A stretch of DNA of 64,000 bases from contig NC_088303.1 of assembly GCF_032854445.1 (NCBI RefSeq), positions 13,213,501-13,277,500 of the forward strand, read 5' to 3'. The position numbers and the translations under genes were made by a program. A model generated the notes under the pieces. The model did not search any database and was not told where the DNA came from. It was given only the letters and a program-made list of their open reading frames with translations. Each line of letters opens with the position of its first letter. Positions within the stretch are counted from its first letter, which is position 1. Positions 5,057-36,811 of the stretch are shown here, piece after piece. This stretch comes from Liolophura sinensis. Lineage: Eukaryota; Mollusca; Polyplacophora; Chitonida; Chitonidae.

Positions 5057-5472
5057 ATGTTTAAGGAGCTGAGCGCCATCCTGATTCTCGGCCTGATTTC
5101 TCCAGGTACAAATGCTGTTATTGAGGCATGTCACACCATTTTTTCATAGACTTAACAACACCAAACAGAATATGTCGTAAATATTTTTCATTCGGCATTG
5201 GGAATATACTTACGTATTTCAACAATTTCTATTCAGTTGATTTATTCCTGTACTGTCTTGTAAGTTGTCAGGATAAAGTTTGAGTTATGTAACCGTGGGT
5301 TTACGACAACAATATAGGTGTCAGCACGATTTTTTACACGCTTCACGTACACAGTGTGCCCTAACAGAACTAACTGCTTCAACACTGCAAAGCTGGGCGT
5401 CTTACCATGCCATTCCGCAAAGCCATGAGGTAGTTTTAAGAGTGAGTCGGCTAATGTTGTGAACTATTACAT

Positions 5473-5535
<63 letters not shown>

Positions 5536-7584
5536 TTATGGTGGGTGATAGTTGTGCTCCACCCATACTTGCAATTATACTGAGTTTGCCACCAAATTCA
5601 CACACACACTCACTATTAGGAAGCGATCCCTGCCTTACTCGTTGAATGATGGACAGAACGTCGGTGGGAAATAATGTCTTCTAAACTTTAGTGAACGAAT
5701 AAGAACAGTGCATCTGGCAAAAACTGGACCCCAGCCACTTCTACTGCCAGAAAGTCACTGATAGTTGAGTATACGTCACTGATGGTCGTGTATACGTTAC
5801 TGGTGGTTGTGTATACGACACTGATGGTGTATACATATGGTATATTCATACGTCACTAATGGTTGTCACTAATGGTTGCGGGCTTTATTATAATCTGTAA
5901 CGTTCAGCTTCAGGAATTAAATAATGCCTATTTCAAATGAAATTTTCAGACATTTGTGCAGTGGCAAATGTAATGAATGGTTATTTCATAAACTGTCCTT
6001 CAAACGATTTAAGAAAAGAATTAACAGATTTTCCATTTGATCTTACTACCCAATTCAATCCAATAAAAAGGCATGGTAAGCCATTATTTGATGTAGTTTT
6101 CGTTCAGAGAAGTCTTTAGCTAGAAAATTTCTAAAGTTCCATCTTTTCCAGGGGTGGATTAAATTAAATCGAAAGTGAATAAATTAACTGCTCCACCAGT
6201 GACAGCACGTCGCATTGCCAGTTATATTTAATACTGGTATTAAAACCAGTCATTTCCGTTACAGTTGTCAATACATCAACAACTCTGCACACTTAACAGT
6301 TAACTTTATACAGATAATATGTCAGGGTTCAGACAAGGCTAATCACACAGCATGTCCCAATGAGTCAGAGAGAATTTTCACCAAACATGATGGGGATGCA
6401 GATCCATCTTTTCTGAAAATGACTCTCGACCACAATTGTACTTCATGTCTAGCTCATGCTGGCTTCCTTTCCGGCCTTACGTGGGAAGGTCTTGCAGCAA
6501 CCTGCGGATAGTCATGGGTTTTTCCTGGGCTCTGCCCGGTTCCTACCACCATAATGCTGACCGCCGTCGTACAAGTGAAACATTCTTCAGTACGGCGTAA
6601 AACACCAATCAGATAAATAAATAAATTTTTGGTTTTGTTTAAATACCTTCTGATATTTCTTATGGAACTTTTGCAGCAGTTGTCCTGAGAAAAATTAAAT
6701 GATAGAGTTTCACCGACAAACTTTCACACTTGTGACATTAAAGATGCGTAAACCAAACGGTGTCTAAGCAACTCCATGACATCACTCTGCCTGAGGTGCA
6801 GGTTACTGCGTCTGGTACGGGTGCGGTTACCGGCTAGCTCTGTCATGGGTGCGGTTTATCGTGTTTGTCAGGGGCGCGGTTTATCGTGTTTGTCAGGGGT
6901 GAGGATTACCGCAGCTGCCAGATGGGCGCTTATCCACTCTGCCTGAGGGGCGGTTACCCACTGTGCCTGAGGTGCGGTTACTCGCTGTGCTTGAGGTGCG
7001 GTTGCCCGCTCTGCCTGAATTGTGGTTTACCCAGTCTGCCTGAGGTGCGGTTTACCCTGTCAAAGATAAGGTTTACCAGTTCTGCCTGAGGTACGGATTT
7101 CCCGCTCTGCTTGAGGTGCGGATTACAAGTTCCCGTTCTGCCAAAGGAAAGTTTAACCGCTCTGTCAGAGGGAAGATTTCTGGCTCTACCAATTTTCGTT
7201 GATTATTATGTTATTAATCAAATAGCCTTGATAGAGCGACTTGATAATGACCCAGGAACCTCTCACCAATGCAGGCGCTGTGAGTTTGTCCAGCTCATGC
7301 TGGCTTCCTCTCCGGCCGTACGTCTGCCAGCAACCGTTGATTTCCCCAGGGCTCTGCACGGTTTCCTCCCACCATGATGCTGGTCGTCGTCGTATGAGTG
7401 AAATACCAATCAAATAAATAAATCATATAGTCTTGAATAATGGTAGTTGGAATTTGTTTGCAGGACTCGGGTACGGCCGGCAGTGCACTATTTCTGATAT
7501 GGAATTATTTATTTCATGTTTTGATTCCTTTGGTTTCGCAAATGCAAGTCTGCCTGATTTAGCAACGCTGGTGTCATATTGCAG
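5057..7584 (+). CDS. Partial ten-Cys secreted protein gene, exons 1-2 only (copy 0)
   Basis: Two exons match the first two exons of copies A and B downstream. Exon 1 is 5057-5105: a good start context (CCCGCCATG), a short signal-peptide-like segment MFKELSAILILGLISP, ending in phase 1 at G|GTACAA. Exon 2 is 7464-7584: acceptor TTTGTTTGCAG, 39 full codons, ending TCATATTGCAG|GTAGCT in phase 2. It keeps the family's three cysteines (RQC, SCF, SYC) and the SFGF motif. No exons 3-5 are visible before copy A begins. It is either a truncated duplicate, or an alternative 5' module that could splice in frame to exon 3 of copy A (15967). A possible extra symmetric phase 1-1 exon lies at 5950-6075. Function unknown. 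Confidence 0.55.
5470..5537. repeat. (ATTT)n microsatellite
   Basis: About 17 uninterrupted ATTT units, in the intron after exon 1 of the partial family copy. It may be the tail of a lost minus-strand SINE-A, since that family ends in this repeat. Confidence 0.9.
5757..5880. repeat. Short degenerate minisatellite
   Basis: Irregular tandem units of about 22-25 bp built on TATACGTCACTGATGGTTG, with five to six degenerate copies. Confidence 0.65.
6441..6628 (+). mobile_element. SINE family A, 5' truncated
   Basis: Starts within the body (AGCTCATGCTGGCTTCC) and runs to the family 3' end ACACCAATCAGATAAATAAA. The tRNA-like head is missing. Confidence 0.85.
6781..7180. repeat. 24-bp degenerate minisatellite
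   Basis: Tandem units around CTGCCTGAGGTGCGGTTACC, clearest at 6935-7070 with period 24 and degenerate at both ends. One frame reads as an eight-residue repeat (YPLCLRCG-like), but this follows from the period being a multiple of three. It lies 280 bp before exon 2 of the partial family copy. Confidence 0.75.
7240..7428 (+). mobile_element. SINE family A, internally deleted copy
   Basis: Contains ATGACCCAGGAACCTCTCAC, the body, and the AATCAAATAAATAAATC tail. Both the tRNA-like 5' end and part of the middle are missing. Confidence 0.85.
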
Positions 7585-7913
7585 GTAGCTCAACTGTTTG
7601 TTTGTCCGCATCTGTAGTCACACTCTTCTCACACACTGTGTTCTGTCTGTGCCACTGGTATCAACCCCCAAAAATACACGGACCGGTAACTGAAATGTTA
7701 AATGCTGAGATATGAAGTCATAATGAAGCGCAGTAATGCTACATGTGTATTATTTGAGCCGTGTGTTTAGTAGAAATTTGTTTAATTTTGTATAATATTA
7801 CGTGAGCAATAACAGCAGAGCAGTTCATGAGACACGTGTTTAAATACTGAAATACAGACACAAAACAAAACTTGTGAGAAAGAGAGTAATAAATAAATGT
7901 AAGAAGTAGGCCC

Positions 7914-7985
7914 TAAAGGGTTTCCTCCCAACATAATGCCGGTCATCGTATAAGTGAAATGTTCTCTAATAATGAAATAAATAAA
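7914..7985 (+). mobile_element. SINE family A, 3' fragment
   Basis: Only GGTTTCCTCCCAACATAATG ... GTATAAGTGAAATG remains, followed by an A/T-rich tail. Confidence 0.7.
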
Positions 7986-8217
7986 TATATAAATACAGTG
8001 TATATAGATAATTGATTATCGACTTTGTATATCAGGAGAATGTACCAATTGAAAAAAAGAATAATATCCCTTCACTCAAATGCTGCCACCTAAACAAAAA
8101 ATAAAACAGAGAGTAACTACTTTCAAACGGCATAGAATATCCATAAGATTTATAGTCTGTTTCTTTTAGCCCGTCGCCTATATTCAACCATCTGTAAATC
8201 ACACTCCTTACCAAAAT

Positions 8218-8222
8218 TGCTT

Positions 8223-8253
<31 letters not shown>

Positions 8254-8375
8254 TTTTAATTTTATTTGATTGGTGTTTTACGCCGCACTCACGAATATTT
8301 CACTCATACCACGGCGGTCAGCATTATTGTGGCAGGAAACCGGGCAGAGCCAGGAGGAAACCCACGACCGTGCAG
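8218..8375 (-). mobile_element. SINE family A, 3' half
   Basis: Begins with a long TTTA tail, then ATTGGTGTTTTACGCCGCAC, CGGGCAGAGCC and CCCACGACC. The head half is absent. Confidence 0.85.
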
Positions 8376-8698: not shown

Positions 8699-8924
8699 GG
8701 GGCCTCCGTGGCTCACCAATGAGGCCGCTGTGAGTTCAAGTCCAGCTCTTACTGGCTTCCTCTCCGGTCGTATGTTGGATGGTCTGGCAGCAACCTGCGG
8801 ATGGTCGTGGGTTTTCTCCGGGCTCTGCCCGGTTTCCTCCCAAAATAATGCTGGTCGTCGCCATATAAGTGAAATATTCTTGAGTGCGGCGAAAAACACC
8901 AATCAAATAAATCAATAAATAAGT
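8699..8924 (+). mobile_element. SINE family A with target duplication
   Basis: Starts GGGCCTCCGTGGCTCA (A-box side; part of the head is deleted) and ends ACACCAATCAAATAAATC. It is flanked by a perfect 10-bp duplication CATAAATGAA at 8689-8698 and 8925-8934, so both boundaries are firm. Confidence 0.9.
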
Positions 8925-12152: not shown

Positions 12153-15100
12153 ATGTTTCTTAGTCAACTGCTTACAACCATGTTGAAGGGAGTGTTGATT
12201 ATCCTTATACTGGGCCTCGTGTATTCAGTTAAAGACATACAAGCAGGTAAGGTGTTATATAGGTGTAGAAATATTGGAGTCTCGAGTTCGAATTCGAGAT
12301 AAAACAGTCCTACAATATCATGTGGTCTGCCAGAAATGTTAGGCAGCTATTATTGAGCACATTTACTGTAACTTGAGCGTCTGGAAAAAGTTTCAGAAAA
12401 GTTATTTAGAGTAGACGAACGATGGTGAACATTGAAAAGCTGAACGTTTGTGAAGTTTAGAAGTTTTCTGTAAAAAGAGGTGGCCATTGAGCCTCTGGTA
12501 CACGATGAGACAGGTGATTGGTAAATTAATGTTAACAAATGTTGCCTAACATTTCTTAGAAGTCACATGAAACAGTAAAACAAAACAGTTCAAACTGGAA
12601 ACTCCCTTATTCTTGAGTTAAATGTTTCTTAGCGGAGAAACTACTTTCGATGAAGTGACAATAGATATCTTAACAATTCATTTAGGCCTGCACAGGCTGC
12701 AAGTATCAGCTCATTTCTCAGAGAACGCAAGGTTTAATGGCTTATCGCAGAAGTGTGTTATTCTAAGAATCTGGTCAGATACCTAACCTTTGACACATCA
12801 CTCACGAACTTTCTCACGTGTGACTTGCACATCATATTGGTGGAAGACAGGTGGCCCTCAACTTGCGCTTGCCTCCCAGCGTCGTCCCTCGCTTGTTGTA
12901 ATCAAGACCCCACTGTGAGGGAACAAATTTTGTGTCCAAGTCCAGATTTGAAACCGCATATCGTGTTTTAACGACAGAAAGGCATACACTGTAACCACTA
13001 GACCAGTGTATTTTGACTTTGTTTTGTCAAGAGGTTATATGACGTTGCTAATGCTTCATATAAAAACGGTTCCATGCAGGAGTATTTTAGCCTCATCTAA
13101 TATCTCAGATTCCCGGTTGCTTTCCATCATAATGCTGGTCACGGTCGTCAGACATTCTTGAGAACGGTACAGCGTAAAACACCAATCAAATAAATAAGTA
13201 AACAAATAATATCTCAGATTAAGCGCAATGTATGATATCAAAGTGGGACAGTCTACGTTATCATTGTGACGGTAGTAGCTCGTCATGTTCAAATGAAGGT
13301 GAGAGTTAAACGTATAATAGAAGTGTTCTTTTTTACTTCGTATCACGCAAGAATAAATTATAGTGCAATAAATTGTCCTCTGAATCAGGTTTGTTGTTTT
13401 ACTTTCCTGCGTAAATCTGAATGTGAATGGAAATCTGTCACTGGGAAAATGTGTATGGATTATCGTAGATTATCTACATTCAATTTATGTACGCTGTGCA
13501 ATACTTACATTTATCCCATGATTTGCTCGTGTCAGTGATATAACAACAGTAATGTAAATTTTCAGTATTCCACTTTGCCAAACCGAACTTTTGATTGGTC
13601 ACCCGAACTTTTATTGACAAGCTTATCCAATGAACAACAAAGGGCCAGGCTGGCGTTCACTTACTACATTGTGACAGCGGTTTCTTGGTACCAAGACGTA
13701 AATATTTTAGACATTGGATAGGGATTTAAAATTTATCTTCATGAAATGTGAAAGATAGCAAAGGTCGGTGAAAGGAAATGAAGCGTTTGACGCTGTATGC
13801 CTAAGAAAAGTTAGGCCTCCTCACAAACACAAGCTCTACAGTCACGAAATTTTAGTTTACTACTTCGTAGAGCACCAAAGAGTGACTGGGGTTCTACTTA
13901 GTATTCAACAACTTTTCCATCATATGACGACGAAGGAATATTTAGGTTGTACGTAATGTGCCTTCTTGTTGCAGGACGGATTTCCACCGTTCTTTTATCT
14001 AGTGCTGCTTCACCGAGACGACTTACCGAAGGCACGTAAGCCGAGCTATTATACTGATACGGGTCAGCCAGTCGTTGCACTATCCCCTTCATGCTGAACG
14101 CCAAGCGAGGAAGTCACAAATTTTCTTTAAAATCTCCGACTCGACCCAGGATTGACCCTGGATCTACCACTACCGAAGTGGACGCTCTACAAACTGTGCT
14201 ATCCGTGGCGGTGAGCACCAAAGAGTAGTGCATGAACTGGTCTGTAATTGATGTACCTCAAGATTATTGAATTAATCGGTATAGTCCATTCTATTTGCCG
14301 AATCGTGCACGATAAATGATCCCACCGTGACCTTTTGATCCAGCATCATGTCTACCATCACACGGAAAATCCAACACAGAACCAAAATCAAGCCCTTTGA
14401 AATATCGTATAGACACTGTTTTGTTGCACTCTCCAAGTTCCATGAGTCCAGTAAATAAGTTTTGAGCTGAGTTGTGCGCGCTAAAAGCCTAAATTCGAAT
14501 ATTTAGTTCAGTATGGTTTTCGAAATCACCGACCTGGATACATTTAGGTCACAATTTTGGAACAAACTGCTTCAATAATTGAGAAGTTATGAACGCTGAT
14601 ATTTTCGAAAAATATTAAAGCTCGCGATCTTATCGCAAACTAATGGATTGTGTTATGTTAAAACACAGATTTGCTCAATGTTTGTAGATCTATATTTAGT
14701 TAAATGTGTTGTTCGTGTTCATCCGTTTCACACATACAGAGATCAGCACAGATCTCATTTACATACTTGTCAGAAGAAACAGACGTTGTTTTCTCTATCA
14801 ACCACCTAAAACCGTTTAAAATAAATTATGGGATAAATAGGATATGTAATTCGTGACCCATTATATCAAATTTTTGAACTCGTGGTGCAATTTTAATTTT
14901 GTTTAGAATTAACGCCATTCGTTTAATACAGTTGATATAATAGGTCACTCATTATATATCCTCTATTTATACAATTAATATACTATGGCTATAGGAAATG
15001 AACTTTAGAAAGTTTTTGGGATAAGACTTGCCGTCAGTTATCTAATATTCTTCATTGTTGGTGTAGTAATATACAGGTGATATAAATAAAATGACTCGAA

Positions 15101-18100
15101 ATAAAAAAAAATGTACCTTGAAAAACACCTTGCTAAAATCTACAACAAACCTCCTTACTGAAATCTACAACAAAACTCTTCCATCTATGTCATGCCGTCA
15201 TGTCCATAAAGTCATGTAGATTTGAAGTTAAGAATCATTCACAAAGATTCTTCAAATCTTTGCCATTTTGTTTTCAGGATTTCTTAGCGAGCAACGATGT
15301 ACCTATCGGCTTGAAAGGTTCTTGTCGGATTGTTTTAGTTCCTTTGGCTTCTCAAGTACCAGCAGCTGGACACCTAACTTGGCCGCGCTTATACCATACT
15401 GCAGGTAAAGCAACGGTACACTGTGCATAAAGTTTATTCACGTCATGTAAGATGTATGCTTGATAACCAGGTTCAATTTTAATGCATTTTTTCATTTTTC
15501 ATTTATGTATTTATTTGATTCGCGTTTTACGTCGGACGTCGCAATATTTCACTATTACGACGACAGTCAGCATTATGGAGGGATGAAACCTGGCAAACCC
15601 TGGAGAAACCCAAGATCATCCGCAGTTGGCTGCTAGACCTTCTCACATACGGCATTTTTTGTTAAAATAGGTATACAAGTAAACTGCAATCTATATAAGG
15701 TCTGCAAATAAAATTTAGGCACAAATTTACAAAATTGTCTAATGGACACGGCAGACACTGAATTATTCGGAACTTTCTTCGCGAAGACTATTACAGCAGA
15801 ATTAGAAGCAGAAATCGTTTATTACCTGGTGTTTATCATTGAGCCCGTGTTCTTAGCTGCAAAGGTGCATATATCATGAAGCGAGATAGTTATCAAGATG
15901 CAAAGCGATATGTGCTTTGTTAACAAACTGTATAATACAAGTCATAATTTGTCTTTCATTTCCAAGCGCTCCAGGTCGCGCAAATGGCGACCACTGCGTG
16001 AATGAGTTTCCAGAAACTTGTTCGTTGGCCTTCCTCAGGTCTTCTACGTTCCGAAGACGACAGCAACTTATGTCTCGTGCCTTGGACTACATGTGCTCTA
16101 ACATAGACGGTAAGGCTGAGAGACTTAATAAGCATATCTGCATTCATTATTCCAGGGAGGCTTCACAGAGTATTCACTTTAGTCATGGAATTCAGGAAAT
16201 AATTATTACCTCTAACTCACAAAAATGGCTTAAAGGATACATGAAACGTTTGTGTTTTTATTTTTTAATATGCAGTTTACTATATGTATTATTTTACCCC
16301 GCTGTTAGTTGCGGGTCGTGTGCAATTATACATATTAAATAGAGATGACCTTTCAAACAACATCGAGTGTGTCACACAACACACCGACCCGTAGGTTTAC
16401 CCCACCCGAGTAATATCATTTCATGCTGTTTATGTTGACAGATAAAAGAATTTTAGTTCGCTTACTTGTTAGATTTGCTTCTCAATTTAAGTTCGCTTAC
16501 TTGTTAGATTTGCTTCTCAATTTATATAAAGGTAAACTATCGGAGTTTCCTTCAGTGATAAAAGTGTTACTTCGCACAGTTTATAAATATCGCTTTTGTT
16601 TTTACATGTTTTATGTTTAACACTTAGACGCCGTGACGTTAAAAAAGAAATATTTTTTCAAGACGTTCCAATCTGAGCTCAGCAGCTTAAGTATCGGAAT
16701 TTCCTTCCGTGATAAAAGTGTTATTTCGCACAGTTCATAGATATAAACCAGAATCTCAGCATTATATATGCAGTTTTTGCAACGTTTTCTTCATTTTGTA
16801 GGGGTTGAATGGACTTAACACCTTCGTCTTGGTGTTAGCTGTGTAACCCTATACCGCAAAACTTTGTATGGTACCTCGTCATTTTCAGAGAATGTGCGTT
16901 CAGCGATACTGAGTTAAGATGGGCTTATACACAACGATTTTGTTTTCGATTTATACGTCCGATTTTCGGTTTGATTAAGTTCAACGGGAACCATTCGATT
17001 ACCTTTCGATTTTCTTCGCGCAGACACAACGATATTACTTCCGATTTGTCGAATCGTTTCTATGTTTGTCTCGTGTATCTGCATAAACGAAATGGCGTCA
17101 AGTGATGTTTACAGCAGCGATGACGAAACTGAGCTCGCCCTCCCGTCAGCAACAGCGGCTACCGTTGTTTTCTCAAAGAGATAAGGAAAGCGAAAATGGG
17201 TGAGGGAGCCAAACTTGGGGTATATTCTTGCCTTTTAAAAGATTTAACTTTCGGAGATCCGTCAGCACTCAAAAATTTCCTGAGGATGGATGATGCGTTT
17301 GAGAACCCGCTGAGCCCTGTTGGGGATAAGATCCGGAAGGAGGACACCAGAATGAAAGAAACCATTCCACTTGGAGAGCGACTTGCCATCACTCGCAGGA
17401 TATTGCGGAAGGTATGCTATACCAGGATACACTAAACTTGCTGCAGCATATATCACCAGGATCACAAAAACAACTCAATGAGCAATTTCATTCATCGAAT
17501 ATTGTACTACAATTTTACATGATGAGGTAAAGAACCTAAAATCAAAATCAAACACAAATAAGCCAGCAGAACAAAAAATTGTCTGAGTTCTATTTGTTTT
17601 ATTACTAATAACATTTCTTCCAAGCTCAAAATACAGCTACAGTTAAGCTAATCTTCAAGGCATCATTCGTAATGTTGAATGTACTTCAGTTTTAAGAAGT
17701 AAAGGATATCAATATAGAGGATAATCTGTATTTTATACTTGGAATATTTATCATACATGTACAATATGGAAAACATAGCATTAATGAAGTTGCACAAAAG
17801 AACTTCGTTAACATAGGGTCAGCTTGTACAGTTATACAATTCACATAAGCTATTAACAAGAAGACATGTTACCATGTATCTTTACACCTCATATATTAGT
17901 ACAACTATATTTACGTATAACACATTGAATAAAATCTGTACATGTTCTTGGCAGAAGAACTAAATTAATTTTAGTATTATCGATGAATAAATTCGTTCTG
18001 GTATAGTAATAACAATTTAGTCATAACTGACACCTATGCGTTAATTACAATGGAGTATATTTAATTAATCCAATAAAGTAAGAATCGTAAGTTATACAAA

Positions 18101-19504: not shown

Positions 19505-19595
<91 letters not shown>

Positions 19596-22500
19596 GCTCT
19601 TGTAGATGCCAACTATAGGTTTCTAAATTTAAATGTTGGTGCAAATGATAGGGCTGGGGACACTGGTGTTTTTTGTTTGTTTGTTTGTTTTTGTTTTTTT
19701 TCTTTTTTGCAATTCCACCCTGTGTGAAGCCTTAGAGAGGAAGACTCTCAAAATTCTAAACTGAAAAAAACCCACCTGGAAGACATAAACAAGCTCCGTA
19801 TGTTATAGTTGGGGCTGATGCTTTTCCTCTGAGGGATTACTTACTCAAACCGTATCCCTCACATACAGATGTAGGAGGACATTTTAGTGTTAAACAGCAA
19901 GAAGAAGAAAGAAAGAAAGAAAATAAGAATTTTCGATATATAGACTCTCACGGACAAGAAGAGTTATCACAAATGCTTTTGGCGTTCGATCGCTTCGGCA
20001 TTTTTCGAAATGCTATTTACCTAAAGCCCGAAAGAGCAACCGAGGTAACTTCAACTGCCATTTGTCTACAAAAATACCTTTGCAACCGGAAAGATTCTTC
20101 ATACTACAAGTAGGATGAGTTGGAGGCTGTCACTTCCTCTTCCTTTGTATCACTTGCTAGATATCACGGTAACAGATCTACTACCGCATCCAGGGATCAC
20201 AGTGTAAACAGTGTATCATTCTGTGAGGAGGGACGAGTTTCATGGCAAAATAAATTACTGTTTAAATAGCTCGGATATATTTTGTTCTTAATGGCTTTAT
20301 TCTGCCAGCGGTAACGTATTTGCCTGGGACACTTTCTGTCAGTGTTATACTACTTAGTAATTATTATCAGGTACAGGAAAATGGGAGGTGGAGGCAAGAG
20401 GGAGTACGTTTACACCTGTGTATCTGTAGGCTTGCGTCAGGCAAAGCCGGTTTTCCGCAAGTTTTTTTAAAATTATTTGCTAATAATTTTAGATGAAGTC
20501 CGAGTAATTATTTCTTTCATTAATATTTTGGAGCTTATTTTGTATAGATGTACATTGCATATATTATTGCATAAATATATCAATGTTTTTCAAACAGTGA
20601 ATTAATACTGCTGGAATAACCTGATTGTTGCTCTATTCTGTCTTTAATGACATGTGAGATTCATGATGAAATAATTTGTTTACATCAGGAGTAATTTTTT
20701 GGACAAAAGTTAGGTTTTTCCTATAAATAACAAATACACCAAAGTCGAGAAAGAAATCAACTCAAGCCTGTAACAGACGCTGAAGTACAAACTGTATAGG
20801 TGATATTGCAAAATGTGTAATGCGGTGAGTCATGCAACACTTATTTCTTTTTTTAAATCTCAGAATCACATCTCTTCAATAAAATGTAAATTTTATTGAA
20901 CCTACCATGTTGCTTTTGTCTTTTGTTTGGGCGCAGTGTGGCCTGAGAAACTCCAGGTGTTGGAAGTATTTCCATATGCAAACATGTACATCATCCGATG
21001 CAGTGCCACTTTTTTGTGAAGCTCTCACTTTGTTCAGCTCTCTGCCGTATGTTGTGCGTAGTGAATTTATTTTTTTTATCTCATTATAATAATGGATTCG
21101 TCTAGAAAAAAGGAAAATAATGCTATAACAGTTTTTGCACAAGAAGTCAGTGCCTGAGACATTTATTTCACTATATATATGATTTATAATGCGTAATTGA
21201 GCCATGCACTATGAGCTTGTCACCCAAGATTCAGGGTAGGGTATATCATAGAAATATTAGAATTTTAAATACTGTACGTTAGGTTTTATGATAGTTATGG
21301 AAAGGTCAAGTTACCTATAACTTGGTATAAAAAAAGTTGTAATGCTGGTACAGGTTCATAACTACATAATTTGGATATCAGAAGTAAGAAAAAATGTTCC
21401 ATTGAGTTGACAGCTAGCCCTCGTCTTCACTCAAATTCCAGTTTTCGTTACCACACAATCGAGATCAAAACAGTTATAGTCAAGAAAAATAACAGTTGCG
21501 GTGAATATTCGTTGGCCGTTGTGTGTAAGCCCATCTTTACACAACAAACTACGGCTGCGCTACGGCGGTGATAAACCCTTAAACATATAACGAAAGAAAA
21601 TGATTCTCTGCTTCTTCGGGGACATAAAAATTAGATTAAGCTGCAGCTTTCCAATTAGCCCCATTGTAACCACCGGAAAGTAAGCTTTTTGTCGAATTTT
21701 GGGGTGCTAAGCTGGTCCTGCGTTCCCAGTAAGTTCAGTACCATTACGTCATGTCCAAAAACTTCGGAAGAGAGGCTATTAAGAGAAATAAAGTAGGAGA
21801 CAGAAGAAATTTTACCATTACTTTCTGGAGCATAACTTTTTTGTTTCCCTTAAAACCATAATCTTTTAGAGTTCCTTTTTATGGACCGTTTAATGTTATC
21901 GGGAAACGGTGTCATGATTTAGAACAACTTTTCTTTTTCAAAACTTTCTGTATTATTGATTTACCATGTACATCAACATTATTGATAATAAATCGTACAT
22001 TAGATTGTACATCTAATATCGGTCTGGAAAAGTAATCATCATTTAATGCAAATTGTATTTCATTTACTTGATGTTTATAAAATTATATTAAAAATTTTTC
22101 TTTGCAAACTTCGATTAATAGTGTTGGAGAACGACATGGATTGTGTGGTGGGCCAAATGACGGAAATACGTCGCTGTAGCGAGCAATATCCAGCACAAAT
22201 GGCTTCTATAGATCCGAACATCACCATGGAATACGTTCCAGACAACACGGAAAGGTAAACCTAATTGAATAGCTCGACTAAATAATTTATTTAAGCAAGG
22301 AATAAGTTCGTATAGTTTATCGTAAATTATGACGGGGCCTCCGTGGCTCAGTCGGTTAGCGCACTAGCGCAGCGTAATGACCCAGGAGTCTCTCACCAAT
22401 GCGGTCGCTGTGAGTTCAAGACCAGCTCATGCTGGCTTCCTCTCTGGCCGTAAGTGGGAATGTCTGCTAGCAACCTGCGGATGGTCGTGGGTTTCCCCCA

Positions 22501-23161
22501 GGCTCTGCCCGGTTACCTCCCACCATAATGCTGGCCGCCGTCGTATAAGTGAAATATTCTTGAGTACGGCGTAAAACACCAATCAAACAAACAAACAAAT
22601 GTAAATTATGACAAGACTTTGGCTAAAATCTCTAGCGGGTACTTCATCTCTTTTTGCTGTATGTTGAAACACTTGATATATCCGTTACTTTATCACTGAA
22701 AAGTTTGCATGTATTTATTTATTTATTTGATTGGTGTTTTACGCCGTACTTAAGAATATTTAACTTATACGACGGCGGCCAGCATTATGGTGAGAGGAAA
22801 CCGGGCAGAGCACGGGGGTTGCTGGGAGACCTTCCCACTTACGACCGGAGAGGAAGCCAGCATGAGCTGGACTTGAACTCACGGCGACCGCATTGGTGAG
22901 GGGCTCCTGTGTCATTACGCTGCGCGAGTGCGCTAATCAACTGAGCCACGGAGGCCCCAGTTTGCATTTAAGACACCGTAGGTTGAAGTATTGTGAGATA
23001 TTTGAGTGAACAAATAAAATGGGTTTTCTTTCTATTTCAGCCCTGAGCAGATATCTGCAAAGTGTTTTGTTGATACTCTGAAGGATAACTGTTCATCGGC
23101 CGTGGCAGAATTGATCGGAAACTTTTTGCACGGAATGGTGGTTTACCCGTACGAGAATTAA
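12153..23161 (+). CDS. Secreted ten-cysteine protein, copy A (five exons)
   Basis: Exons: 12153-12246, 15278-15404, 15967-16109, 22122-22254, 23041-23161. All junctions are GT/AG with phases 1, 2, 1, 2, giving an open frame of 205 residues ending in YPYEN. Residues 1-31 hold a signal peptide (core VLIILILGLVYS); the second Met, at 12180, is an equally good start. The mature part has ten cysteines at about 39, 50, 73, 84, 92, 117, 129, 140, 174 and 183, one NIT glycosylation site and no membrane anchor, so it is probably an extracellular disulfide-rich helical protein. I do not recognise the family. The cysteine spacing is loosely like DUF19/CPG4-type domains, which is only a guess. Copy B keeps every cysteine and junction. 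Intron 3 is 6 kb because it holds a Harbinger transposon. The exon 4 acceptor (TTAATAG) is weaker than in copy B. Confidence 0.8.
13109..13196 (+). mobile_element. SINE family A, 3' fragment
   Basis: CCATCATAATGCTGGTCACG through ACACCAATCAAATAAATAAG, in intron 1 of copy A. Confidence 0.75.
13884..14212 (-). mobile_element. SINE family B with 14-bp target duplication
   Basis: A second tRNA-derived family. Its 3' part (TTGTTGCAGGACGGATTTCC) comes first and its tRNA-like head last (GTGCTATCC, the complement of an A-box region). It is flanked by GAGCACCAAAGAGT at 13870-13883 and 14213-14226. Copy B has one copy of this string, at about 26479, and no insert, so the insertion postdates the gene duplication. 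Confidence 0.85.
15498..15655 (-). mobile_element. SINE family A, truncated, in intron 2 of copy A
   Basis: GTATTTATTTGATTCGCGTT ... TATGGAGGGATGAAACC ... CTTCTCACATACGGC. The matching position in copy B (about 27833) lacks it. Confidence 0.8.
17092..20113 (+). pseudogene. Harbinger DDE transposase (HARBI1-like), degenerate
   Basis: Recognisable blocks in order: N-terminal YSCLLKDLTFGDPSALKNFL and GERLAIT (17195-17412, donor AAG|GTATGC); a helical block with NTVSTIVHDTCRVIHNVLQP (about 18296-18420); EDEWFKEAQDFEEKWNFP (from 19362 after TTTGCCAG); IFPNCLGVIDGKHGAIVFP (first catalytic Asp); ALVDANYRFLNLNVGAN (second Asp); PYVIVGADAFPLRDYLLKPY; IFRNAIYLKPERATEVTSTA. Frameshifts occur near 17150, 19435 and 19930-20000, and in-frame stops near 19765-19790. 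In the block normally reading RRVVENAFG the sequence gives RRVITNAFG, so the catalytic Glu is replaced by Thr. A long ATT array has expanded between the GSTYWNYN and ALVDAN blocks. The protein would have been the element's nuclease; it is not functional here. Confidence 0.85.
18946..21101 (-). pseudogene. MADF/Myb-like accessory protein of the Harbinger element
   Basis: Two minus-strand exons share a phase. The upstream exon, 21101-20906 (acceptor TTTTTCTAG, donor ATG|GTAGGT), encodes a MADF-like block with LRTTYGRELNKVRASQKSG and an IWKYFQHLEFL motif. The downstream exon, 19200-18946 (acceptor TATATTCCAG), continues in phase 0, with TPKKKVKRTTSEEAINLM as a basic nuclear-localisation-like segment. 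Harbinger elements encode such DNA-binding proteins, which carry the transposase to the nucleus and to its TIRs. The frame stops at TAA (18946-18948), but the same frame then reads FSAFGKYVASERTKM, a typical C-terminal end of this family, so the stop is probably premature. The N-terminal start of the MADF domain was not found. It is transcribed towards the transposase. Confidence 0.65.
19508..19593. repeat. (ATT)n microsatellite inside the transposase frame
   Basis: About 28-29 ATT units. It keeps the reading frame, coding for a run of Ile, and sits where the family normally has a short hydrophobic strand before ALVDAN. Confidence 0.95.
20114..21536. other. 3' non-coding part of the Harbinger element
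   Basis: Apart from the minus-strand MADF exon at 20906-21101 I see only AT-rich filler up to the right TIR. Confidence 0.5.
22334..22600 (+). mobile_element. SINE family A, full length with 12-bp target duplication
   Basis: The best copy in the window. The tRNA-like head has an A-box TGGCTCAGTCGG and a B-box-like GTGAGTTCAAGACC, followed by the body and a CAAA-rich tail. GTAAATTATGAC flanks it at 22322-22333 and 22601-22612. Copy B carries the single unoccupied site at about 29980. Confidence 0.95.
22711..22958 (-). mobile_element. SINE family A, near full length with target duplication
   Basis: Minus-strand copy ending with GAGCCACGGAGGCCCC, flanked by AGTTTGCAT at 22702-22710 and 22959-22967. 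Copy B has one AGTTTGCAT and no insert (about 30074). A short internal deletion removes part of the GC-rich middle. Confidence 0.95.
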
Positions 23162-25122: not shown

Positions 25123-28100
25123 ATGTTTCTTAGTCGACTTCTTACAACCATGTTGAAGGGAGTGTTGATTATCCTTACACTGGGCCTCGTGTATTCAGTT
25201 AAAGACATACAAGCAGGTAAGGTGTTATATAGGTGTAGAAATATTGGAGTCTCGAGTTCGAACTCGAGATGAAACAGTCCTACAATATCATGTGGTCTGC
25301 CAGAAATGTTAGGCAGCTATTATTGAGCACATTTACTGTAACTTGAGCGTCTGGAAAAAGTTTCAGAAAAGTTATGTAGAGTAGACGAACGATGGTGAAC
25401 ATTGAAAAGCTGAACGTTTGTGAAGTTTAGAAGTTTTCTGTAAAAAGAGGTGGCCATTGAGCCTCTGAAACACGATGAGACAGGTGATTGGTAAATTAAT
25501 GTTAACAAATGTTGCCTAATATTTCTTAGAAGTCACACGAAACAGTAGGACGAAATAGTTCAAACTGGAAACTCCTTTACTCTTCAGTTAAATGTTTCTT
25601 AGCGGAGAAACTACTTTCGATGAAGCTGACAACAGATATCTTAACAGTTCATTTAGGCCTGCACAGGCTGCAAGTGTCAGCTCATTTCTCAGAGAACGCA
25701 AGGTTTATTTGCTTATCGCAGAAGTGTGTTATTCTAAGAATCCGGTCAGATACCTAACCTTTGACAAATTACTCAGGAACTTTCTCACGTGTGACTTGCA
25801 TATCATATTTGTGGAAGCCATATAAGTGAAATATTCTTGAGTGCGGCGAAAAACACCAATCAAATAAATAAATAAATAACCATTGTCATGGTAGTAGTCA
25901 TGTTCAAATGAAGGTGGGAGTTATAATCGTATATCAGAAGTGATAACAGAAGCTTTTTTAACTTCGGACTCAAGGAAGAATAAATTATAGTGCAATAAAT
26001 TGTCCTCTGAATCAGGTTTGTTGTTTTACCTTCCCGTTTAAATCTGAAAGTATTTCTGAATGAAAATCTGTCATTGGAAAAATTTGTATGGATTATCGTA
26101 GATTATCTACATTCAATTTATGTACGCTGTGCAATACTTAAATTTATCCCATGATTTGCTCGTGTCGGTGATATAACAACAGTAATGTAAATTTTCAGTA
26201 TTCCACTTTGCCAAACCGGACATTTGATTGGTCACCCAAACTTTTATTGACAAGCTTGTCCAATGAAAAGGCCAGACTAGCGATCACTTACTACACCGTG
26301 ACAGCGGTTTCTTGGTACCAAGCCGTTAATATTTTAGACATTGGATAGGGATTTAAAATTTATCTTCATGAAATATGAAAACAGCAATGGTCCGTGAAAG
26401 GAAATGAAGCGTTTGAAGCTGTATGCGTAAAAGAAGGTAGGTCTACTCACAAACACAAGTTTACTTTACTACTTTGTGGAGCACCAAAGAGTTGTGTCGT
26501 ATGTATCAACTGGTAAGCAAGTAATGTACGTTAAGACTATTGAATTATTCGGTATAGTCCATTCTATTTGCCACATCGAACACGATAAATGATCCCACTG
26601 TGACCTTTTGATCCAGCATCATGTCTACCATCACACGGAAAGTCCAACACAGAACCAAAATCAAGCCCTTTAGAATATCGTATAGACACTGTTTTGTTGC
26701 ACTCTCCAAGTTCCACGATGGTTAGTAAGTCCAGCAAATAAGTTTTGAGGTTTTGAAGCCTAGATTTGAATATTTCGTTCAGCGTGGTTTTTGAAATTAC
26801 CTCTCCTCGCACCCTAAACTTCATCGCGTGACGCCAGTTGTCATAGAGACGTGACGTGGATACATTTAGGTCACAATTTTGAAACACACTGTTTCAATGA
26901 GCTATTATGAATGCTGATATTTTCGACAAATATTAAAGCTCGCGATCTTATCGCAAACTAAAGGATTGTGTTATGTTAAAACACAGATTTGCTCAATGTT
27001 TTTAAAACTATATTTAGTGAAATGTGTTGTTCAGTTGCATCCGTTTCACGCATATCGAGATCGGCTCAGATCTCATTTACATACTTGTTAGAACAAACAG
27101 CCGTTGTCATCTCTATCAACCACCTAAAACCCTTTAAAATAAATTATGGGATAAATAGGATATGCAAATCGTGACCCATTATATCAAATTTATTGAAGTT
27201 TATTTAATTTTGTTTAGAATTAACGCCATTCGTTTTATAAAATTGACATAATGGGTTACTCATTGTATATACTCTATTTATACAATTAATATACTATAGA
27301 CCCTAGCTCTAAGAACTTAACTTTAGAAAGACCGTGGGGTTACACTTGCCGCCAAGGATCTAATATTTTTTATTGTTAGTGTAATAATATACATGTGATA
27401 TAAATAAAATGATGAAGCTTTTAAAACACCTTACTGAAATCTACAACAAACCTCCTTACTGAAATCTACAACAAACCACCTTACTGAAATCTACAACATA
27501 CCTGCTTACTGAAATCTACAACAAAACACCTCCATCTATGTCATGCCGTCATGTAGACAAAGTAATGCAGATTTGAAGTGAAGAATCATTCACAAAGATT
27601 CTTCTAAGTTTTGCCATTTTGTTTTCAGGGTTTCTTACCGGGCAACAATGTACCCACCGGGATGTAAGGTTCTTTACGGGTTGTTTTGATTCGTTTGGCT
27701 TCTATAGTACGAGCAGCTTGACACCCAACGTGACCGCGCTTATACCATACTGCAGGTAAAGCAACGGTACACTATGCATAAAGTTTATTCACGTCATGTA
27801 AGATGTATGCTTGACAAGCAGGTTCAATTTTAATGATCTGCAAATAAAATTTAGGCACAAATTTACAAAATTGTCTAATGGACACGGCAGACACTGAATT
27901 ATTCGGAACTTTCTTCGCGAAAACTATTACAGCAGAATTAGAAGCAGAAATCATTCATTACCTGGTGTTTATCATCGAGCCTGTGTTCTTAGCTGCAAAG
28001 GTGCATATATCATAAAGCGAGATAGTTATCAAGATGCAAAGCGATATGTGCTTTGTTAACAAACTGTATAATACAAGTCATAATTTGTCTTTCATTTCCA

Positions 28101-30275
28101 AGCGCTCCAGGTCGCGCAAATGGCGACCACTGCGTGAATGAGTTTCCAGAAACATGCCCGTTGGCCTTCCTCGGATCTGACGCTCCTACGTTCCGAAGAC
28201 GACAGCAACTTACATCTCGTGCCTTGGACTACATGTGCTCTAACATAGACGGTAAGGCTGAGAGACTTAATAAGCATATCTGCATTCATTATTCCAGGGA
28301 GGCTTCACAGAGTATTCACTTTAGTCATGGAATTCAGGAAATAATTATTACCTCTAACTCACAAAAATGGCTTAAAGGATACATGAAACGTTTGTGTTTT
28401 TATTTTTTAATATGGAGTTATTCATATTAAATAGAGATGACCTTTCAAACAACATCGAGTGTGTCACGCAACACACCAACCCGTAGGTTTACCCCACCCG
28501 AGTAATATCATTTCATGCTGTTTATGTCGACAGATAAAAGAATTTATTTTATCGTTCGCTTACTTGTTAGATTTGCTTCTTAATTTATGTAAAGGTGAGC
28601 TATCGGAATTTCCTTCAGTGGTAAAAGTGTTATTTCGCAGTTTTTACATATCGCTTTTGTTTTTACTTGTTTTTATTTTAAAACGCCATGATGTTAAAAA
28701 AGAGACATTTGTTTCAAGACGTTCCAGTTTGAGCTCAGCAGTATGACGTCATAATATATGTACAGTGAACTTTTATGGTTCTACATCAAATAACACATGT
28801 AATAATGCATGTATGACACCACGTCATACATACGCAGCTTTGACCTATCTAGGTCAACTGCTATAGCCTAAACTTGCCATTGATTTATCTATTCTTCATG
28901 ACCTCTGTGGACGGGGTAAAATAATTTTTGCCACATTTTCTTCATTTTTAGAGGGTGTGGTGGGGGGGGGGATATAATAGACTTAACGCCTTCGTCTTGG
29001 TGTTTGCTGTGTAACCCGATACCGCTGAACCCTGTTTGGGACCTCGTCAATTCCCGAAAATGCGCCTACGGCGGTATTGGGTTACACAACAAACACCGTG
29101 ACGACGGTGTTAAACCCTTAATAAAAGAAAAAGATTCTATGCTTCTTCCTGGGAAGTAAAAATTACATTAAGCTACAGTTATCCGATTAGGCCCCATTGT
29201 TACTCCCGGAAAGTAAGCGTACGTAGCCACCATTCATGTCGTCATCAATGATAAACAACTCTTTTGCCATATAGCCCGAATTTTGGGCTTCAATAAGTTC
29301 AGTACGATTACGTCATTTCCAAAAACTTCGGGAAAGAGGCTATTAAGAGAAATAAAGTAGAAATCAGACGAAATTTTACCATTACTTTTGGAGCATAACT
29401 TTCTTTATTTCCCTTAAAAGCATAATCTTTTAGAGTTCCTTTTTATGTACCGTTTAATATTATCAGAAAACGGTGTCAGGATTTAGTACAACTTCTTTTC
29501 AAACCTGTTCAGAAATCTTTGTGGTCTGTTAGAGTACCGATATGTTCTTATTAGAAAGTAGGCTTACATTTTCTATATTATCGATTTATTGTACATCAAC
29601 ATTATATTGTTAATAAGTCGTAGATTGTACATCTTATATCTTGACATAATGTCATCCAAAAAAGTTATCATCATTTAATGCAAATTGTATTTCACTTACT
29701 TGATCAGATTGTTTCCAAAATTATATTAATTTTTTTTCTTTTCAAACTTCGATTTCCAGTGTTGGAGAACGACATAGACTGTGTGGAGGGCCAAATGACA
29801 GAACTGCGTCGCTGTGGCGAGCAAGGCCTTATGCAACATTCAACGCAATTGGCTTCTATAAATCTCAACGTCACCATGAAAAAGCTTCAAGACATCATGA
29901 AAAGGTAAGCCTAAATGAATAGCTTGACTGAGTAATTTACTTACCAATTATTACAATTATTTAATTTCGTATAGTTTATCGTAAATTAGAACAAGACGTT
30001 GGCTAAAATCTCTAGCGTGTACTTCATCTGTAGGTTGAAACACTTGATATCTCCATTACCTTGTCACTGAAAAGTTTGCATGTGAGACTCCGTAGGTTGT
30101 AGTTTTCTGAGATATTTGAATGAATAAATAAAATGTGTTTTCTCTTCGTTTTAGCGCTGGTGAGATATCTGTAAGGTGTTTTGTTGATACTCTGGGGAAT
30201 ACGTGCTCATCGGCCGTGACAGAATTGATTGGAAACTTTTTGTACGGGATGCTGGTTTACCCATACGAGAATTAA
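25123..30275 (+). CDS. Secreted ten-cysteine protein, copy B (five exons)
   Basis: Exons: 25123-25216, 27629-27755, 28103-28251, 29760-29904, 30155-30275, with phases 1, 2, 1, 2. They give 211 residues with a signal peptide (VLIILTLGLVYS core) and a C-terminal YPYEN. All ten cysteines of copy A are kept. Exon 3 is two codons longer (LGSDAPTF) and exon 4 four codons longer than in A, with an NVT glycosylation site. Exon 4 is open with clean splice sites (GATTTCCAG, AAAAG|GTAAGC). It lacks the transposon and most of the SINEs found in copy A, so it better represents the ancestral gene. Function and family are unknown. The hydrophobic N-terminus, even cysteine number and glycosylation site point to secretion. 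Changes relative to A are spread over the mature part, so the two may differ in binding properties. Confidence 0.82.
25818..25878 (+). mobile_element. SINE family A tail fragment
   Basis: CCATATAAGTGAAATATTCT ... ACACCAATCAAATAAATAAA in intron 1 of copy B. Confidence 0.8.
27430..27530. repeat. 25-bp tandem repeat, four units
   Basis: Unit CTTACTGAAATCTACAACAA plus ACCTC, four copies just before exon 2 of copy B. Copy A has only two, at about 15128-15176, so the array length changed after duplication. Confidence 0.9.
28982..29116. mobile_element. Foldback MITE in intron 3 of copy B
   Basis: About 135 bp, mostly palindromic. The left arm TTAACGCCTTCGTCTTGGTG ... TGTGTAACCCGATACCGC mirrors the right arm GCGGTATTGGGTTACACAAC ... 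GTTAAACC. The same element in copy A is interrupted by the Harbinger transposon, so it predates the gene duplication. Confidence 0.75.
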
Positions 30276-30332: not shown

Positions 30333-30338
30333 AATAAA
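30333..30338 (+). terminator. Polyadenylation signal of copy B
   Basis: AATAAA 58 bp after the stop, in the same conserved context as copy A. Confidence 0.8.
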
Positions 30339-32308: not shown

Positions 32309-32940
32309 CAGTACAGACTCTCACGAGAGTTTATTGCAGGCTATATACAAGGAAGTGGAGTTTCACTAAGCTTTTCTAGCTCTAACCATGTTCAGTTTGA
32401 ATGGATTGACGGCACTCCTAATACTAGATCTGACGGGTTTTATTCAAAGACGTGCGTGGTGGTAAGATGAAGCACTGTGTACATGCATGTAACACATATG
32501 CATTTTATTATCTGTTACGGGAGAAATTTAGCTGCCTGTGTGACTTAGAGATATATTCAACTTTACATCAGTTGAAGTGTAGTGTTGACTGCTTCGACTG
32601 TAGGTTTCTCCTTGTGTGATAGACTTTCTTCCATACAAAACACTGGTAACCACCCCAGAAACGCATACCTTCTAAAGTAAATTACCTGCAATTTGATTTC
32701 TGGACACTTGGATTGGCAACACTGTACACTGGAAAGATCACAGCTCTTGAAGGACTTGTTTCGAAACATTTATTTTTGGAGGTGACCCTACAGATTGTTT
32801 CACACCCAGGATGAATGCGTTAATATCTTACTGCAGGTAAATCAAACGTATGTTTTTCGTTGTATGGATACAAATAAACAATAACCATTACCTGTCAAGT
32901 TTAATGGGCATTGATCTTTACATTCTGTACTATGTAAATG

Positions 32941-33850: not shown

Positions 33851-35596
33851 TAGAGAACATTCTTTGATATGTAGTTACCACAAACGTCATATGACGTCAT
33901 TAACAAGAATGTCTTTTGAACAAGAATGTTAAAATCAAACATATCCACTGAATAGTTGAAATGTAAAATGTCTTTTGACATGTAAGCCTCAAAAATGTTC
34001 TGAGATGCCCTTGTGTATATCAGGTGGCCATCGCCCATTACCTCATGCATCAGGTCTGCTGCCGTGAGGAAACGCTTTAACCCAACGCTGTTTGTCGTTT
34101 GTTATCGTACCTTTTCTTTTTCCCAGCGCTCCAGGTCGAACAAATGGGGAACTCTGTGTGAATGAGTTTTCGGACACTTGCCCCATGTTATTTGTTGCAT
34201 CCGACTCTTCCATATTCCGCAAACGACACCAATTTGCTTCTCAGACACTGGGCTATGTGTGCTGCAACATCGATGGTAAGGCTAATAGAAGATATGATAA
34301 CTATATCTGCATTCACCGCAGGGGCGATTCATAGAGAATGTCTTCAACTACCTGAACGAAAACCTTATTATACCAGTTCAACTACGAAATATTGTAACTT
34401 CAGGACATCGTTAAATTTTACATTAATCAGGGGGTTTACTACTTATTTTTAATTGAGCTATCACACAAATACCTATTTTATGTAAAACAAATCTTACACT
34501 GAGCAATTTGAAGGAAGTGAACATAAAACTAATATATTCCGACACTTAATGTGATCTGGAAACGATGTCATTAATTAATATAAATATTTTTTGATTAGCT
34601 AACCAGTTCAGAAAATCTGTTTTCGAAATTATATTTTTGATAAATCTTACAATGTGAAATTCCACTTCCAGTTCTGGAGAACAAAATAGATTGTGTGGAG
34701 GGGAGAATGAGAGGTGTGCGCAGATGTATCCAGGACTCTGTCACATCATTCACCATGGAGGTTGCTTCAGCCAACATCGCCATCGGCATAGAATTTCTTC
34801 AACACGCCATGCCGAAGTATGCTTAAAAAGTTACCATCTCGGTGAAATACTAACTTAAGAGCTAACTAAAAAATTAATCGCTATACGTTTCGAGAACATT
34901 GCCCACCTAAAACAAATCGGTCGAAAACCTCGCAGTGAATGAACGGTTATGGTTTTACGCCTCTTCAGCAATGTTGTAGTCATATTATGGCGAGAACATC
35001 TTTTCACCAGGAGACTGTAACGCATTTAAAAAGCAAAGAGTTCTCAATTATTGATTCGTGACAACAGAGAACGACGTGTTATTACGAGTCAATTGCAACG
35101 GGCGTATTCGACCGCATTAAACCCAGTTCTAAATAATATGACACCTTTATCCACTCTGGATTGGAACACTATAAATCTGACAGACAAGTCAATAATAATC
35201 TGTTGTCATGAAAAACGTTTTCCATACTATACTACAACATATCTGTCGAAAACTGTTTTGTTTTCTAGCAGCATCAAATAACAGCATAAAAATCAAAACC
35301 AAAACTATCAGTTATTTCCATAATTACGATAGTTATACACTTCCCCGAGTGATGTATAGACAAGGCCGACATATTGTTAGAAAATGTGCAGGATGCAAAC
35401 GACCACATGTATGAAAGTCGAATACCACTTATCGAATCCCACGGACAAGGCATTTCCCTGTCCCACGCATATGATGTGTCGTAGCCACTGAAAGGCACCC
35501 ACCACCCTACTAAACCACCCGCTTCTTGTGCCTGATGGAAATTCGCGAATTAAGTGTTAACACGAACACTATAAATTAGACAAAAACTTTTGTCTT

Positions 35597-35898
35597 CATT
35601 TTTCAGTCATATGACGAAGAAAGAGTACATATAGTGCATGTACGTGTAAAGTGCCTCCTCGTTGCGGGACGGATTTCCACCGCTCTTTCATCCAGTGCTG
35701 TAAGTAAGCAACCGCACCCGAGCCATTATACCGATACGGATCAACCAGTCGTTGCACTATCCCCTTAATGCCGAACACCAAGGGAGGAGCCTACAACTTA
35801 ATTTTTTAAGGTCTTGAGTGTGACCCGAACCAGGATTGACCCTAAATCCACCGTCCCCCCAGGCGGACGCTCTACTAACTGAGCTATCTGGACCGGTC
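35597..35898 (-). mobile_element. SINE family B, minus-strand copy
   Basis: From TTTTTCAGTCATATGACGAA through TCGTTGCGGGACGGATTTCC to the head GCTCTACTAACTGAGCTATC (complement of the A-box region). The middle is partly deleted. Confidence 0.85.
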
Positions 35899-35928
35899 AA
35901 AAAGTTTGAAATACCAAACATGACCTTA

Positions 35929-36065
35929 CATTTATATATTTATTTATTTACTCAAGAATATTTCACTTATACGACGGCAGCCAGCCTTACCGGGCAGATC
36001 GCGGAGGAAACCGGGCAGATCCCGGAGGAACCCCACGACCATCCGCAGATTGCTGACGGACGCAT
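35929..36065 (-). mobile_element. SINE family A fragment
   Basis: TATTTATTTACTCAAGAATA ... GGGCAGATCCCGGAGGAACC ... CCATCCGCAGATTGCTG. Both ends are truncated. Confidence 0.8.
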
Positions 36066-36811
36066 GACCTAATAGAGTACTTTAATTCACTTTCATCTGG
36101 CGTTTTCACAATGAAATGACTGGAATGGCGAGAAACATAAACGTGACAACGACTGCACGTGACAGTTATCGCCTGCTTTGCTCAATGGCTTTTCAAATTA
36201 CCGAATGATTTCAACTGGTCAATACATTACAGTTTTCTACCATCAGTGCGAAAGTTTCCATCGACTCGCATGTTAAGGCCTTTATTGAACATTGGGGTAA
36301 GAGGCGATTTTAAATCTTTTTCTTGGACATACTGTTCTTAAAAAATGGGAGGAATTTGTGATACGTTATAATAGAAATATACAATTTCTAGCTGTGATAT
36401 CTGTCTGTACAAACCACGGTTATAGTTCAATACGAGGCTACAAGGCAAGAAATCGTTTCTTTGTTTAATAGAGGCATAAGGCAATCAGTTTTTTTAATTT
36501 TCTCCGTTTCACCATCGGACGGTACACAATGGGTTGCTTTGTCGATTCTCTACAAGCAAACTGTGGGTCGGACGTGACGAACTTGATCGGAAGCTTTGTA
36601 AGACTAATTACAAAACCATTAGTTCAGCATGGTCACTTGTCTAGTTTAATTTGCAGGATTTCTGTGAAATTAACACTTCACTTGCTTTTTCACGATTCAA
36701 ACTTATTCAATGCACTGGACACTTTGCTGCTTATTACCATTAAAGATGTTTTCCTAATCAGCTGTTTGTTTTCGGCAGCATGAAGTTATATTGGCGTTTT
36801 CAGCTGGCACT

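Follow-up and report, generated by a model that had tools for sequence, protein, structure and literature searches.

Tandemly duplicated five-exon genes for putative secreted ten-cysteine proteins in the chiton Liolophura sinensis, members of a larger unnamed family

INTRODUCTION

Secreted cysteine-rich families make up a large unannotated share of many invertebrate genomes. One such putative family is described here from a stretch of 64,000 nucleotides of the chiton Liolophura sinensis (assembly GCF_032854445.1, contig NC_088303.1, positions 13,213,501 to 13,277,500; hereafter the window), in which two complete genes, A and B, lie on the forward strand between a partial copy ('0') and a broken one (D). 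An earlier reading of this DNA, made from its letters alone (the original prediction), had described a tandem cluster of an unrecognised ten-cysteine secreted protein family. The gene models, the relatives of A and B in the genome and the resemblance of the family to known protein domains are examined below.

GENES A AND B

Both genes could be rebuilt from five short exons with identical phases, as the original prediction had claimed (Table 1). A (12153–23161) and B (25123–30275) share the phases 1, 2, 1, 2, all eight introns are bounded by GT and AG, and the joined frames are open up to the stop codon that follows the YPYEN end, which is seen in both spliced products (205 residues in A, 211 in B); the motif AATAAA lies 58 nt beyond the stop in both genes. 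In A the cysteines number ten and are spaced exactly as stated beforehand (10, 22, 10, 7, 24, 11, 10, 33, 8), and the same ten occur in B with spacings of 10, 22, 10, 7, 26, 11, 10, 37, 8, that is, with two more residues between cysteines 5 and 6 and four more between 8 and 9. The predicted leaders at the start of both proteins are hydrophobic, in agreement with the secretion that had been proposed. Intron 3 of gene A (16110–22121) measures 6,012 bases as compared with 1,508 in B; it contains three open frames without a Pfam match at E 0.01 and a perfect run of about 29 TTA units (19507–19594).

Searching all 609 Mb of the genome led to a third complete copy, E, on contig C13; its exons measure 73, 127, 149, 145 and 124 nt, and it shares the phases and cysteines of A and B. 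The ratio of non-synonymous to synonymous substitution rates (dN/dS) is 0.34 for B versus E (p 4.5e-9) and 0.38 for A versus E (p 3.2e-7). When 77 random substitutions were introduced into B in a neutral simulation, the open frame and all ten cysteines were kept in 0.2% of 20,000 copies. This low retention, together with the purifying selection seen against E, makes chance a poor explanation, and by these comparisons A and B are real genes, under purifying selection when set beside E. Positive selection between A and B, also considered, is unsupported (dN/dS 0.85 in exon 2, 1.02 in exon 4 and 0.73 overall).

Table 1. Exons and exon remnants of the four gene copies in the window.
Feature	Position in window	Strand	Length and remarks
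Partial copy '0', exon 1	5057..5105	+	49 nt; phase 1; GT donor; hydrophobic leader; weak match to A (tblastn E 2.6)
Partial copy '0', exon 2	7464..7584	+	121 nt; cysteines 1-3; AG and GT present
Gene A, exon 1	12153..12246	+	94 nt; start codon and hydrophobic leader (Kyte-Doolittle 3.67 over 10-residue core); ends in phase 1
Gene A, exon 2	15278..15404	+	127 nt; cysteines 1-3
Gene A, exon 3	15967..16109	+	143 nt; cysteines 4-6
Gene A, exon 4	22122..22254	+	133 nt; cysteines 7-8; N-glycosylation sequon NIT
Gene A, exon 5	23041..23161	+	121 nt; cysteines 9-10; YPYEN end; stop; AATAAA at 23219
Gene B, exon 1	25123..25216	+	94 nt; start codon and hydrophobic leader
Gene B, exon 2	27629..27755	+	127 nt; cysteines 1-3; sequon NVT ahead of cysteine 3
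Gene B, exon 3	28103..28251	+	149 nt; cysteines 4-6
Gene B, exon 4	29760..29904	+	145 nt; cysteines 7-8; sequon NVT
Gene B, exon 5	30155..30275	+	121 nt; cysteines 9-10; YPYEN end; stop; AATAAA at 30333
Broken copy D, exon 1	32388..32461	+	74 nt, as against 73 in relative E, so that the phase differs
Broken copy D, exon 2 remnant	32640..32836	+	acceptor lost; frame broken; end with cysteines 2-3 readable
Broken copy D, exon 3	34127..34275	+	149 nt; open; splice sites present
Broken copy D, exon 4	34672..34816	+	145 nt; open; splice sites present
Broken copy D, exon 5 remnant	36513..36780	+	acceptor lost; run-on frame in place of the usual C-terminal end

FLANKING COPIES AND DUPLICATION HISTORY

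The two copies that flank A and B are partial or broken, as had been noted. Copy '0' (5057–7584) is represented by exons 1 and 2, both with correct phases and splice sites, while a search ahead of gene A found no exons 3–5 for it; copy D has lost two acceptors, those of exons 2 and 5, and the usual C-terminus. The interval between the two exons of '0' also holds an open frame (6203–6508, +), part of which is faintly similar to exon 3 (tblastn E 8.3); it has no Pfam match and was left unassigned.

A and B are contained in a segmental tandem duplication whose aligned blocks are 72–94% identical. Exon 1 is 95–97% identical between the two genes, as are the portions of introns 1 (start), 2 and 3 (start) that were sampled; exon 3 is 94% identical, whereas exons 2, 4 and 5 and their surroundings reach 79–85%. 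Identity is already 96% at the start of intron 2, directly after exon 2, and 90% in the stretch past exon 5. Such patchy identity is consistent with gene conversion between the neighbours, which would fit the mosaic as other histories might also do.

EXTENT OF THE FIVE-EXON FAMILY

At least ten five-exon loci (A, B, E, H, G, I, K, M, N and J) occur on contigs C7, C9 and C13, a count that is a lower bound, as are all member counts given here, because only the best candidates of the genome search were scored and part of the matched regions was read. Among them is H, a divergent gene that lies some 40 kb upstream of the window and is 24% identical to B, with five exons, the same phases and all ten cysteines; it was reached via distant exon-5 matches of the genome search, and G, K, M, J, N and I via exon profiles. 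G, K and M are on C9, as are J (C9:12.79 Mb) and N (C9:0.03 Mb), and I is on C7. All five exons were read in A, B, E and H, exons 2–5 in G, I, K and M (the last exon of M in a neighbouring piece, L016 9691–9999), and exons 3–5 in N and J. The exon 4/5 junction of I would require a GC donor.

The cluster on C9 extends upstream of the window and comprises H, G, K, M, '0', A, B and D on both strands between about 13.171 and 13.250 Mb, and partial copies are found on C13 near 6.36, 7.81 and 26.72 Mb. The tandem arrangement proposed by the original prediction therefore holds for the duplication of A and B, but the family is not merely a small tandem set, its loci being distributed over several contigs.

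Phases are identical across A, B, E and H, and GT-AG boundaries are present in 16 of their 16 introns. Over the exons read in each gene, the ten loci agree in the five-exon organisation, in the phases 1, 2, 1, 2 and in the spacings of cysteines 4–10 (7, 24–26, 11, 10, 33–41 and 7–8). The ten-cysteine signature occurs in all seven members compared and, with the first spacings shifted, in M; its part from cysteine 4 to 10 is found in N and J. An N-x-S/T sequon precedes cysteine 3 in five of seven members. Identity between the subfamilies (A, B and E; G, H and I; K) is 19–31%, and M, N and J are 23–30% identical to G.

A SINGLE-EXON, TWELVE-CYSTEINE BRANCH

When K served as the query, the genome search matched long frames free of interruptions on C12 and C5, with an E-value of 7.7e-5 for a first C12 gene and weaker initial values for a second C12 gene (0.03) and for the C5 gene (0.65). 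In the product of the first C12 gene a leader is followed by the domain, present twice in tandem, and by a mucin-like tail rich in threonine; that of the second has two domains and a short threonine stretch, and that of the C5 gene a single domain. The two C12 genes, L050 and L052 (C12:22.01 Mb), are neighbours, each with two tandem twelve-cysteine domains; in one of them the threonine-rich tail is long and is followed by an alanine- and glycine-rich stretch.

With the C5 protein as the query, 17 matches were obtained at E up to 10, of which 11, on C5, C10, C1 and C12, were below 1e-11; the other six are weak, partial or interrupted by stops. Four further loci were read, and in these the cysteines keep the same order, with two added, and the C-terminus forms a hydrophobic tail. 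Such a tail is present in four of the five one-domain single-exon genes read (L056–L059 but not L053), the C5 gene used as the query being without one. These tails resemble those of glycosylphosphatidylinositol (GPI)-anchored proteins, and the proteins that carry them may be held at the membrane in this way.

The relationship between the two branches was assessed by profile comparison. Aligning the ten five-exon members with seven single-exon domains in hhalign gave a probability of 93.9, a P-value of 1.5e-7 and a score of 52.7, the best control scores being 19.8 among 60 column shuffles that kept the cysteines, 17.5 among 60 full shuffles and 15.4 for the reversed profile. In an earlier test with the five-exon profile, P1 (32.4 bits) and Q (31.1 bits) scored above all 900 cysteine-kept shuffles; P2, the second domain of the C12 protein, taken alone (24.7 bits), fell below the best of 900 shuffles (25.6) and so finds no support on its own. 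A tree places the five-exon and single-exon branches on two sides of branches with 100/100 support, with nine of its 14 inner branches below 80% support and several rows long. Since the score of 52.7 lies far above the cysteine-kept controls, the single-exon branch is, on profile evidence, homologous to the five-exon branch. Genes A and B thus belong, by the same comparisons, to an old family that is larger than their cluster and comprises the five-exon loci and a homologous single-exon branch.

DATABASE SEARCHES AND THE RESEMBLANCE TO DUF1397

The failure of the original prediction to match the family to a named domain was borne out, in that no significant match was obtained in Pfam or among PDB sequences. 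The Pfam scans, which covered the ten five-exon members and the single-exon domains, returned no model over its cut-off for any natural member; they were run at E up to 10 for most members and up to 1 in one single-exon scan, which gave E-values only (best 0.001) for six of the seven members. Among PDB sequences the best E-values (0.26 for B and 0.28, 0.16 and 0.062 for the profiles A1, A2 and A3) were not credible, nor was the best match of the consensus, to the kinetochore protein Spc25 (0.044). Pattern searches of viral and prokaryotic collections gave 55 and 54 matches, respectively, none of which was confirmed, and tblastn gave none. Titles and abstract beginnings in the open-licence literature yielded no description of a ten-cysteine family of this kind.

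Several Pfam candidates were rejected. Prefoldin_3 (E 0.1 in B and 0.0048 in E) matched over about a third of its profile and is an intracellular family; TNFAIP8 (5.6e-5), rejected on the same grounds, was obtained from an artificial consensus of the two branches only, and PAS_8 and DUF7023 each came from a single single-exon domain.

The sole recurring Pfam family is DUF1397 (PF07165), matched in a single register and always below its cut-off. E matches positions 65–198 of the 207 in the profile (E-value 0.0093, 15.8 bits) and G positions 71–195 (0.027, 14.3 bits); the consensus of the five-exon members matches positions 70–195 (0.0047, 16.8 bits) and that of the two branches positions 28–197 (1e-4, 22.2 bits). 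Ten shuffled versions of E and G with the cysteines left in place gave no match to DUF1397. In an in-silico alanine scan of the 16.8-bit consensus the match was no longer reported when cysteine 4, 6, 7 or 8 was replaced, and scored 14.0 bits without cysteine 9, 18.6 without 5 and 19.0 without 10, the control replacements G104A and L156A giving 16.7 and 13.1 bits. These results suggest that the family and DUF1397 share cysteines. DUF1397 would have cysteines 4, 6, 7, 8 and 9 and would be without 5 and 10, an assignment reached indirectly, through the scan; if so, cysteines 5 and 10 would be disulphide partners.

OTHER FEATURES OF THE WINDOW

Downstream of the cluster, an open frame (41851–42363, +) encodes a SAM domain (PF00536, E 8.3e-13), and two actin genes (Pfam Actin, E 1.4e-131 and 2.3e-133) lie in inverted orientation at 50440–51448 (−) and 62846–63854 (+), with 94% DNA identity between these stretches. 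Two tandem arrays are present: in one (42957–43547) a 33-base unit that reads open in a minus-strand frame is repeated about 18 times, and in the other (47145–48625) a 28-base unit is repeated about 53 times and GC skew is strong (0.27 in 46001–48000). SINE-like repeats are dispersed in both orientations (8712–8920, 22392–22600, 6442–6626, 1891–2106, 45253–45430 and 13880–14215 / 37463–37106), and one of them includes a tRNA-like stretch (37113–37184; Rfam 29.2 bits, gathering threshold 29).

PROPOSED ROLE AND ALTERNATIVE EXPLANATIONS

The explanation favoured here takes A and B for functional members of a large, as yet unnamed family whose proteins are small and secreted. As a whole it is somewhat probable; the part that concerns the sequence family is highly probable, and the proposal that the soluble proteins serve as glycoproteins of body fluid or matrix is tentative, its chances falling below even. 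The leader peptide would send the protein into the secretory pathway, and the ten cysteines, near-constant in spacing across the family, would brace a domain of about 170 residues, probably helical, to which N-glycans would be added, the site ahead of cysteine 3 being a recurrent candidate. A conserved core, set against exons 2 and 4 that vary more, suggests a stable scaffold outside the cell, on which these two exons may form a surface that binds a changing partner. Soluble five-exon proteins could act in body fluid, mucus or matrix, and in the single-exon branch the domain could be displayed at the cell surface, on mucin stalks or in mucin-like layers. A microbe, a matrix sugar, a lipid and a gamete are candidate partners, among which the sequence cannot discriminate.

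Several results weigh against this explanation or against the resemblance to DUF1397. Compared with each other, A and B alone show no constraint (the overall dN/dS is not different from 1, p 0.24), and the leader, glycosylation and GPI signals were assessed by eye and by hydrophobicity alone. The cut-off of DUF1397, 25.7 bits, is reached by no sequence, natural or consensus; its match is unreported for eight of the ten five-exon members and for all seven single-exon domains, and a six-frame search of the genome with this profile gave two weak matches, neither at a family locus, which on reading contained several stops and were discarded as noise. Unrelated helical families also match the consensus sequences, TNFAIP8 exceeding its own cut-off and scoring better than DUF1397, and a reversed consensus matched PspA at 0.0057, so that the consensus E-values are inflated. 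The ratio between A and B, along with the broken or incomplete state of their neighbours D and '0', could be taken to mean that A and B are duplicates in decay from which no product is made, but their frames, splice sites and ten cysteines are all intact, a combination of frame and cysteines that neutral change seldom preserves, and each of them is constrained against E, which leaves decay very improbable. Likewise, the sub-threshold scores, the many members without a match and the equal or better performance of unrelated helical families would be expected if the family were an independent animal group of disulphide-rich secreted proteins that matches DUF1397 through cysteine spacing and helical composition. 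This is rather unlikely, however: E and G, which are 23% identical, match the same model in the same register, and the match is lost in the cysteine-kept shuffles and depends on cysteines 4 and 6–9. We consider a remote kinship with DUF1397 probable, and treat it as a lead and not as membership.

More specific roles can be proposed for the products. A function in defence, with the products serving in body fluid or mucus as recognition proteins, secreted or held by GPI, that have diversified through duplication, gene conversion and loss, would accommodate the tandem duplication, the broken copies, the mosaic identity of A and B and the fast-changing exons 2 and 4; among possible relatives, 14 of the 51 DUF19 genes of C. 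elegans are up-regulated on infection (PMC3534327) and DUF1397 genes are moderately virus-induced in Drosophila and Anopheles (PMC8914287). Exons 2 and 4 have dN/dS values near 1 and not above it, however, and kinship with DUF1397 or DUF19 is unproven, and a defence role is judged unlikely. The same degree of doubt attaches to a role in reproduction, in egg coats, or in shell and mucus matrix, for which the two-domain relative has a mucin-like tail, as in matrix proteins, whereas A and B are without such a tail and without repeats. CPG-4 of C. elegans, to which DUF1397 has been remotely linked, speaks for this proposal as well, being a protein of the egg and by name a chondroitin proteoglycan.

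Returning to the secreted family favoured above, it is possible, with chances a little short of even, that one old domain has been deployed as soluble five-exon, GPI-held single-exon and two-domain mucin-tailed proteins in this genome and is itself the wider family that takes in DUF1397 and perhaps nematode CPG4. If so, the domain would be a protostome-wide secreted one, in which particular disulphides have been gained or lost from member to member. Exon structure, cysteine signature and the two branches together delimit a domain that is open to testing and that went unrecognised by the Pfam copy searched. Should the link to DUF1397 hold, a family described as insect-specific would become much older, and genes of known position would be usable for testing its function.

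COMPARISON WITH KNOWN FAMILIES

A link to DUF19 or CPG4, suggested by the original prediction, was not supported by the profiles. The Pfam scans reported neither CPG4 (PF15481) nor DUF19 (PF01579) for any of the members, and a six-frame search with CPG4 matched no family locus, its one weak match lying elsewhere (C5:19075271, E 0.18, two stops). The nematode chondroitin proteoglycan 4 domain, CPG4, thus differs in that no member matched its profile; a likeness would lie in its proteoglycan-like tails, which would resemble the tail of the mucin-bearing C12 protein. DUF19, of the nematode T20D4.11-like proteins, differs in the same respect, and is similar in forming a large multi-gene set with signal peptides in 42 of 51 members and lengths of 140–220 residues (PMC3534327).

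DUF1397 is the domain of the Manduca 27-kDa hemolymph glycoprotein, described as insect-specific, as a product of the fat body and as having a domain of unknown function (PMC8914287). It is called insect-specific in that source although both there and in PMC4379518, which lists it with function unknown, it is reported from centipede venom; it has also been reported to show, by HHpred, a remote similarity to CPG4 of C. elegans (PMC8914287), is named in the figure legends of PMC5869384 and is included in a mosquito peritrophic-matrix set (PMC5865745). The chiton family differs from DUF1397 in scoring below its curated cut-off and in the presence of cysteines 5 and 10, which to judge from the alanine scan the profile seems to be without. 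The two are alike in that DUF1397 comprises a secreted glycoprotein (PMC8914287) with a 207-position domain, to which two members of the chiton family and the consensus sequences align below threshold in a fixed register over most of its length, and in that the match of the family consensus depends on five of its cysteines.

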